Positions 27,760 to 28,665 of a stretch of DNA of 34,312 nt are shown here, piece by piece. The stretch lies in IMG/VR virus record IMGVR_UViG_3300002835_000611, positions 1 through 34,312 of that record; one strand, 5' to 3'. Numbering within the stretch: position 1 is the first letter of the stretch; each line of letters starts with the position of its first letter. The notes under the pieces were generated by a model. That model searched no databases and was not told the DNA's origin. It saw nothing but the letters and a program-made list of their open reading frames with translations. Source of the DNA: a virus. Both the position numbers and the translations under genes were made by a program.

Positions 27760-28157
27760 TTCTAAAAATTACATAAACATTCTAAAACAATACTCTCACC
27801 CTCCTTGTACATTGATTTTCAAAACATTAGGTCTGCACATACGGGGGTAGCACCGCTTGTTTTTTTAGCTGGGGTCTTGATATTAGATGGTCCTCACCCT
27901 CTCACACACAATATAGTTGCATCGTCGGAATGTAAAGATGTAAAGAAAATAAAGGGTGTGGGGGGTTGAATATGGGTTTACAAACCGGGGGTGTTTGGAT
28001 TTTATATAGATTTGTGGTATATTATAGTGTACCCACCTGTAGACGCGGGTGATCCTGTTCGATGGTCCAAAGATAGTTAGAATGGTAGACGTTGGGTTAT
28101 GGGAGTAGCACACAACTTGTGATGTGAAACTGGTTTTCTCCAATAGGTACGAAAACG
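27760..28157. other. Non-coding control region, left part
   Basis: No gene supported. A minus frame over 27883-28143 has no ATG-type support and no family character. Visible elements: palindrome GGTTT-AC-AAACC near 27970, hairpin CACCTG/CGGGTG near 28036, and the TAnnTTTG match TAGATTTG near 28006. G-rich runs on the plus strand (GTGTGGGGGG, CCGGGGGTG) are uncommon in this genome. Confidence 0.4.
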
Positions 28158-28288
28158 ATAGTTCTTTAAAATAGTTTTGTAGGTGGAAACATTACACATA
28201 GGGTATGTGTTCCGAGGTCACGGAGATTTTAGTTTCCACGTGGGTGTAGGCATTATGCTAACGTACAGTACAAAACTGTTTGAACTAT
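28158..28288. promoter_or_regulatory. Large branched inverted-repeat structure
   Basis: Nested perfect arms: ATAGTTC (28158-28164)/GAACTAT (28282-28288); AGTTTTGTA (28173-28181)/TACAAAACT (28269-28277); inside them GTGGAAAC (28183-28190)/GTTTCCAC (28232-28239), which encloses ACACATA-GGG-TATGTGT (28194-28210) and TCCG-AGGTCA-CGGA (28211-28224); and a separate small hairpin TA(g)GCA-TTA-TGCTA (28247-28260). Together they form a closed multi-branch fold of about 130 nt. It may be a structured RNA leader, a cruciform-type origin or a protein-binding DNA structure. A frame at 28183-28368 overlaps it and is judged accidental. Confidence 0.65.
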
Positions 28289-28345
28289 TAAAGTATGTGA
28301 GTGGTGTAAAAATCACACGGGGAGTTCTATGTTCAATACACAAGG

Positions 28346-28354
28346 TGTGGATAA
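28346..28354 (-). promoter_or_regulatory. Perfect DnaA box
   Basis: TGTGGATAA on the plus strand is TTATCCACA on the minus, the exact DnaA-box consensus. A near match, TTATACAGA, follows at 28373-28381 on the plus strand. It sits in the divergent control region next to the branched structure. The phage encodes a DnaA domain IV-like protein (4487-4951). Confidence 0.5.
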
Positions 28355-28382
28355 GTAATATTATTTAAAGAGTTATACAGAT

Positions 28383-28404
28383 TAAATTTGTATAGTTTAA
28401 ACTT
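28383..28404. promoter_or_regulatory. Rightward promoter and copy 4 of the 14-nt motif
   Basis: TAAATTTG (28383-28390) fits the Bacteroidota -7 box TAnnTTTG and is 47 nt upstream of the first rightward gene. It is directly followed by TATAGTTTAAACTT (28391-28404), identical to 26168-26181, which contains the 10-bp palindrome AGTTTAAACT. Read leftward this is the cassette promoter motif, so the site may serve both directions. Confidence 0.55.
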
Positions 28405-28437
28405 TTTAAGTATATTATATTATAAACCAAGTGTATT

Positions 28438-28665
28438 ATGAATAAGCCAAAGACTGTTCAGAACGAGGGGCAACTTTCTTATTATATCCAAACAGAAAAC
28501 AAATATGGGCAAGCAGTGTATATTCCTGTTATTGATGTTAGAGATGGAATAGCAGAACGTGTTTTAGCTGAACAGATTATAAAAGCTCAAAATCGCAGTA
28601 GGTACATCAACTACAATCAGTATCATTTTTCCCAAAAACAAGACAAAAAACAATTTGATATATGA
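28438..28665 (+). CDS. Unknown 75-aa protein, first of the packaging operon
   Basis: 75 aa (SYYIQTENKYGQAVYIPVID, RDGIAERVLAEQIIKAQNRS, ending KQDKKQFDI): a small strand-helix protein with a basic end. ATGA-type overlap with the next gene. First gene after the control region. Not recognised. Confidence 0.65.
   Translation: MNKPKTVQNEGQLSYYIQTENKYGQAVYIPVIDVRDGIAERVLAEQIIKAQNRSRYINYNQYHFSQKQDKKQFDI

Follow-up and report, generated by a model that had tools for sequence, protein, structure and literature searches.

A structured RNA of about 305 nucleotides behind a Bacteroidota-type promoter in crAss-related phages: a candidate class of phage noncoding RNA

The stretch of DNA analysed here (the window) is a 34-kb fragment (34,312 nucleotides) of the IMG/VR phage IMGVR_UViG_3300002835_000611. 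Left of about position 28000 its main genes run leftward and comprise a helicase, an AAA ATPase, a ParB-like protein, a phosphoesterase and a tmRNA, and to the right the genes run rightward up to an exonuclease and the terminase large subunit. This terminase, a protein of 736 aa assigned to PHROG 6681, is about 25% identical to the terminases of crAss-like and Flavobacterium phages; the terminase of L131, a more distant carrier of the RNA described below, shows about 40% identity to gut Crassvirales. The near relatives of the window include a contig of 127 kb. The phage-encoded tmRNA (RF00023, 15336-15693 on the minus strand, 85.9 bits) has an unusually long predicted tag, AMTQSERVAEGEAILASIFGEVAIAA. 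In two other sequences (G032 C1:2164-5196 and G033 C1:19393-22503) the terminase match was split into two pieces about 1 kb apart, which suggests inserted DNA, for instance a homing element or an intein.

A sequence-only reading of this DNA had drawn attention to perfect nested stems at 28158-28288, at the junction between the divergent genes. Every one of these stems was present in the minimum-energy fold (Table 1). The structure is real, but the bounds first given to it were too short, as it forms the 3' domain of an RNA that also comprises a 5' domain and a conserved tail.

Table 1. Features of the divergent junction, in window coordinates.
Feature	Position	Strand	Description
Promoter of the RNA	27994..28023	+	TTTG (27994-27997), N19, GTATATT (28017-28023); Bacteroidota-type -33/-7
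Whole structured RNA, about 305 nt	~28028..28333	+	5' end placed from the promoter and P1, 3' end from the conserved tail
5' domain	28028..28151	+	P1 closes a multi-branch loop of P2, P3 and P4; model R2
P1	28028-28033/28146-28151	+	Closing helix of the 5' domain
P2 hairpin	28034..28051	+	Seen in predicted folds; missing in some clades
P3 stem	28055-28060/28080-28085 (28055..28085)	+	6 of 6 pairs vary on both sides
P4	28091-28096/28139-28144 (28091..28144)	+	Preceded by conserved AGAC; contains the variable hairpin P4b
3' domain (structure first reported)	28158..28288	+	P5a and P5b close P6, P6a, P6b and P7; covariation, model R1
P5a, outer 7 bp	28158-28164/28282-28288	+	Minimum-energy fold
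P5b, long second stem	28169-28181 with 28268-28281	+	Minimum-energy fold
P6, inner 8 bp	28183-28190/28232-28239 (whole 28183..28239)	+	Encloses P6a and P6b
P6a, 7-bp hairpin	28194-28200/28204-28210	+	Sequence invariant among near relatives
P6b, 4-bp hairpin	28211-28214/28221-28224	+	3 of 4 pairs covary
P7 side hairpin	about 28240-28267	+	Conserved GGGTGTAGG...CTRACGTACAG; flanks invariant, stem covarying
Conserved tail	28316..28333	+	CACGGGG-AGTTC-TATGTT in the window
TGTGGATAA, DnaA-box-like	28346..28354	+	Goes with the operon promoter, not with the RNA
Second (operon) promoter	28387..28416	+	TTTG-N19-GTATATT; coding portion of the rightward operon begins here; 28381-28430 conserved
First gene of the rightward operon	28438..28665	+	75 aa, function not assigned

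Among relatives, noncoding sequence is conserved from about 28007 to 28270 and again from 28381 to 28430, and no long conserved reading frame crosses the RNA region. P1 varies almost freely in sequence but stays paired: the UGUACC/GGUACG of the window becomes UGCACC/GGUGCA, AGAAGC/GCUUCU, CAGAGAC/GUCUCUG, UCCAAC/GUUGGA or UGAUACU/AGUAUCA in relatives. The P2 stem also differs in sequence between relatives with pairing retained, the apical loop of P3 is of the GNRA type in several of them, and the nucleotides joining P2, P3 and P4 are conserved. In one clade (L152, L147, L146, L158, L163 and L162) P4 carries an insertion of 60-80 nt with hairpins of its own, including CGCTGTGACAGCG-type repeats. 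Behind the 3' domain, the motif AGGGG-N5-7-TATRTYY was found at the same spot in the relatives inspected; both P3 and P4 were considered as pairing partners of the AGGGG tail, which is too conserved for covariation with either.

We then compared the fold with shuffled controls, as the sequence-only reading had proposed. On the plus strand, 28158-28288 reached -42.1 kcal/mol (z -4.3, 0 of 200 shuffles as low), and the z-score of the reverse strand was -5.4; for the full RNA of the window it was only -2.0, and most relatives ranged between +0.9 and -3.4. We regard the folding energy as weak support, since the stretch had been picked for folding and the energies of the homologs were mostly not significant. 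Covariation gave a clearer picture. In 13 near relatives, aligned without fitting to the structure, 18 of the 32 consensus pairs change on both sides and still pair, and 93% of the cells are paired (compare 79.6% for shuffled alignments and 28-42% for slid controls); one of the five measures, that of further pair types, was not above the shuffles (114/500). When 36 sequences were taken, in a model-fitted alignment of the kind that leans towards its own structure, 25 of the 32 pairs changed on both sides and all measures exceeded the shuffles (0/500). The 5' domain behaved likewise: over 33 distinct sequences 97.1% of the cells were paired (100% in P4), with two-sided changes in 12 of 17 pairs. 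The stems are thus conserved in close relatives, and it is the covariation, not the folding energy, that argues decisively for their being under selection.

The distribution of the RNA was studied with two covariance models built separately, R1 for the 3' domain (from the 13 near relatives) and R2 for the 5' domain. The window, which is among the sequences of both models, scored 129.1 bits with R1 and 94.2 bits with R2 (E 7e-30); because calibration was short, this E-value and those below are rough, and the alignments made with R1, R2 and R3 lean towards their own structure. R2 found the 5' domain in 49 loci at E < 1e-7, a few of them included in the model; of 71 pattern loci searched, about 67 had it as well. 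In most loci, distant phages included, R1 then recognised the 3' domain directly behind the 5' domain found by R2. Model E-values went down to 1e-30 in phages outside the model. R1 misses some loci (e.g. L201, L215 and L233) in which a variant 3' domain, apparently of the same plan and followed by the tail, was seen by eye. A pattern scan based on P4 returned at least 119 stretches, the true number being higher, and the RNA occurs in more than 100 related environmental IMG/VR phage contigs, with one convincing match in each large or full contig that carries it. A pattern based on P7 also matched about two dozen unrelated, mostly coding sequences. The phages carrying the RNA probably infect Flavobacteriia. 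In one contig (L241, IMGVR_UViG_3300006790_000188), however, the RNA region has about 57% G+C and no Bacteroidota-type promoter, which suggests another host group.

No convincing copy was found in the terminase relatives L012, L020, L049, L063, L067, L075 and others. Some of the relatives without a detectable copy have a terminase 65-72% identical, so that the RNA must be dispensable or replaceable. The divergent junctions of the terminase relatives lacking it are mostly short, and an alternative fold in L012 lacked significance. R2 and R3 gave nothing above chance in nine isolates or complete genomes (crAss001, cr114_1, cr4_1, cr52_1, cr124_1, cr55_1, phi14:2, FpV21 and Lbo-JY46).

Copies were also found, rarely, in Flavobacteriaceae genomes, where no crAss-type operon was seen beside the convincing ones; 4 of the 300 genomes scored in the family of Aquimarina had a match, one of them a false positive within a coding gene. 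Two chromosomal copies are present in G157, the second of which (C1, L336 5397-5508) lacks the 3' tail and is apparently a partial duplicate, and the copy of G308 (L337) stands alone, about 1 kb from a single tRNA gene. In an uncultured Aquimarina (L301/L330, G041 C6:128001-147784) a GIY-YIG/NUMOD homing endonuclease follows the RNA directly downstream; a recombinase-like ORF is found upstream, and PRTase-CE, ORC-CDC6-like and methyltransferase genes adjoin in what looks like a defence island. In view of this endonuclease a group I intron was considered and rejected, L301 having no Rfam match and no interrupted gene being seen in L330 or in the window. One match in a bacterial genome (L338, 31.8 bits) lay inside a coding gene and was discarded.

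Looking at the sequences around P1, we found a -7-like element beside it, between 28 nt upstream and 12 nt within the helix region, in 78 of 88 loci, with 5.7% and 12.9% in the controls, and the strict Bacteroidota motif TAnnTTTG near it in 63 of 88, the controls ranging from 2 to 13% over both element tests. The motif TTTG-N19-GTATATT has five matches in the 127-kb near relative. As the promoter element adjoins P1, this helix would form at the 5' end of the transcript; its location at the very 5' end of the predicted transcript is strongly supported. On the other side of the RNA, only about 55 nt, with no gene, separate the tail from the second promoter in the window, and the next ORF starts about 105 nt past the tail with this promoter of its own. 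No intrinsic terminator was found behind the tail in the window. A TGTGKATAA box, possibly a DnaA or activator site, is conserved about 35-45 bp before the operon promoter (28346-28354 in the window, and in relatives). The DnaA box that had been noted beside the structure is indeed nearby, in the form of the DnaA-box-like TGTGGATAA, but its position follows that of the second promoter. In L030 it adjoins this promoter and is separated from the RNA by a PhoH gene, meaning that it belongs to the promoter and not to the RNA.

In the contexts first examined, the RNA is almost always located between leftward genes and the rightward operon, the exceptions being L103 and L116, where it stands behind genes of the same strand. 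The first gene downstream varies by clade (PhoH, Cpn10, an amidase, a SET-domain protein or ORFs with no assigned function). Of 110 loci, 54 have a first ORF that begins within 60 nt of the tail, with no intervening promoter, and in these the RNA must be the leader of that mRNA; in 43 of the 110 the RNA and the first gene are separated by a second promoter-like element.

Taken together, these comparisons show or strongly support a two-domain fold, its strand, a promoter-proximal 5' end, the tail, the single copy and the position at the divergent junction. We consider it probable that the locus encodes a structured noncoding RNA that stands alone, is about 305 nt long, has its own promoter and acts in trans. 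The RNA would be transcribed rightward from its Bacteroidota-type promoter with P1 at its 5' end and, as a folded RNA or an RNA-protein particle, might bind a component of the phage or of its host at the time the rightward operon is turned on, rather than serve as a switch for the adjacent gene. As to its partner, the best guess is the host's gene-expression machinery. An autonomous RNA acting in trans appears likelier because of the second promoters, the chromosomal copies that stand alone and the elaborate fold. On balance, and somewhat more guardedly, we favour an undescribed class of RNAs of about 300 nt, widespread in environmental crAss-related Bacteroidota phages and occasional in integrated chromosomal elements, which would influence gene expression of the host or the phage in trans as the rightward transcription programme begins.

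Several observations count against an autonomous RNA. In nearly all contexts examined the RNA keeps its orientation and its place where an operon begins, directly behind the promoter, as a cis-acting element would; no terminator was found after the RNA in the window; half of the loci have a close ORF; and some relatives have no detectable copy. A cis-acting leader at +1 of the rightward operon, for antitermination in the manner of HK022 put or for operon-wide regulation, would accommodate the first three of these points, and we retain it as the main, though tentative, alternative because of the ORFs lying close behind the RNA in half of the loci. However, the second promoter of 43 loci would yield operon transcripts devoid of the RNA, which itself far exceeds the two short hairpins of put in size and complexity, and the chromosomal copies have no phage operon behind them.

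A riboswitch that senses a small molecule and regulates the adjacent gene, the AGGGG tail forming part of its expression platform, seems unlikely to us. The compact multi-junction fold with conserved junction nucleotides and the location of the tail 14-40 nt before a start codon in many clades would suit such a device, but the downstream genes are unrelated between clades and point to no single gene family or pathway, the next ORF of the window is distant and separately promoted, and no Rfam riboswitch matched. The suggestion of a riboswitch-like leader thus holds insofar as the rightward operon opens with a structured RNA placed directly behind a promoter, but the data do not support a gene-specific riboswitch, as the first gene differs by clade and a second promoter often follows.

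We then considered a DNA element at the junction, either an origin cruciform or a recognition site for a protein. In a DNA cruciform the constraint on pairing is expected to be symmetric between the strands. In the paired columns of the plus strand we counted G-U against A-C at 62:2 (A4), and at 34:5 and 37:4 on unfitted alignments, counts that carry a mild bias as the structures were predicted with RNA energies. This excess of G-U, with hardly any A-C, points to an RNA of the plus strand rather than a DNA cruciform, and it disfavours the origin cruciform put forward earlier. A GC-skew minimum is indeed found near the site, the skew turning there in two large relatives, and the TGTGGATAA box is close by; however, the minimum coincides with the switch in transcription direction, so that this check cannot separate an origin from the switch, the box goes with the second promoter, and the promoter of the RNA is placed exactly at P1. 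We therefore hold a DNA element to be very improbable. As for a chance fold in AT-rich intergenic DNA, with which the energies of most homologs, not below those of shuffled controls, would agree, it is refuted by the covariation in 36 sequences, whose score none of 500 shuffles reached, and by the matches of the models in phages outside them.

RNAs that are elaborate and conserved across many genomes usually serve central functions, and it is rare for a class of this complexity to be found. The RNA, at a fixed genomic position in the contigs examined of an abundant phage lineage, is a defined target for studying the onset of the main transcription programme in crAss-related phages, and with the covariance models the family can be found in other genomes.

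Known RNA families were searched at several levels. Rfam release 15, run on the whole window at gathering thresholds, matched only the tmRNA located elsewhere, and a permissive search of the window region, L131 and L215 gave chance-level matches far below the gathering scores. Only short chance matches were obtained by blastn of the window variant, L131, L117, L226 and L264 against GenBank phages, and no such RNA was described in the papers covered by a literature search.

The closest known systems are other structured RNAs of phages. GOLLD and ROOL are large ornate RNAs of phages and prophages, known from covariation, whose function is not established (PMC12286853). The RNA described here resembles them in being an elaborate multi-junction RNA carried by phages and mobile elements and recognised through covariation. 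It differs from them by its size (about 300 nt against many hundreds, GOLLD often exceeding 800), by matching no Rfam model, both families being assumed to be among the 4227 models, by the absence of tRNAs from the window, whereas GOLLD and ROOL lie near phage tRNA arrays, and by its occurrence in Bacteroidota phages, where it starts directly at the promoter of the main operon. It also shares with HK022 put the feature of a structured RNA opening a phage operon transcript. The put RNA is a polymerase-binding antiterminator of about 65-70 nt with two short hairpins; in contrast, the present RNA has about 305 nt in two multi-branch domains and is often followed by another promoter. The pRNA of phi29 is a phage-encoded structured RNA for packaging, and the RNA studied here, also phage-encoded and structured, lies upstream of the packaging operon; however, it gave no Rfam match, and the 736-aa terminase is, as far as known, not a phi29-type motor. 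The tmRNA is a further structured RNA encoded by the phage, but the RNA at about 28028-28333 does not match its model. By the tests made, the RNA is a member of neither GOLLD/ROOL nor HK022 put and appears to represent a class of phage RNA not described before; its newness is at the level of the RNA class, since structured phage RNAs have precedents in GOLLD, ROOL, pRNA and put.
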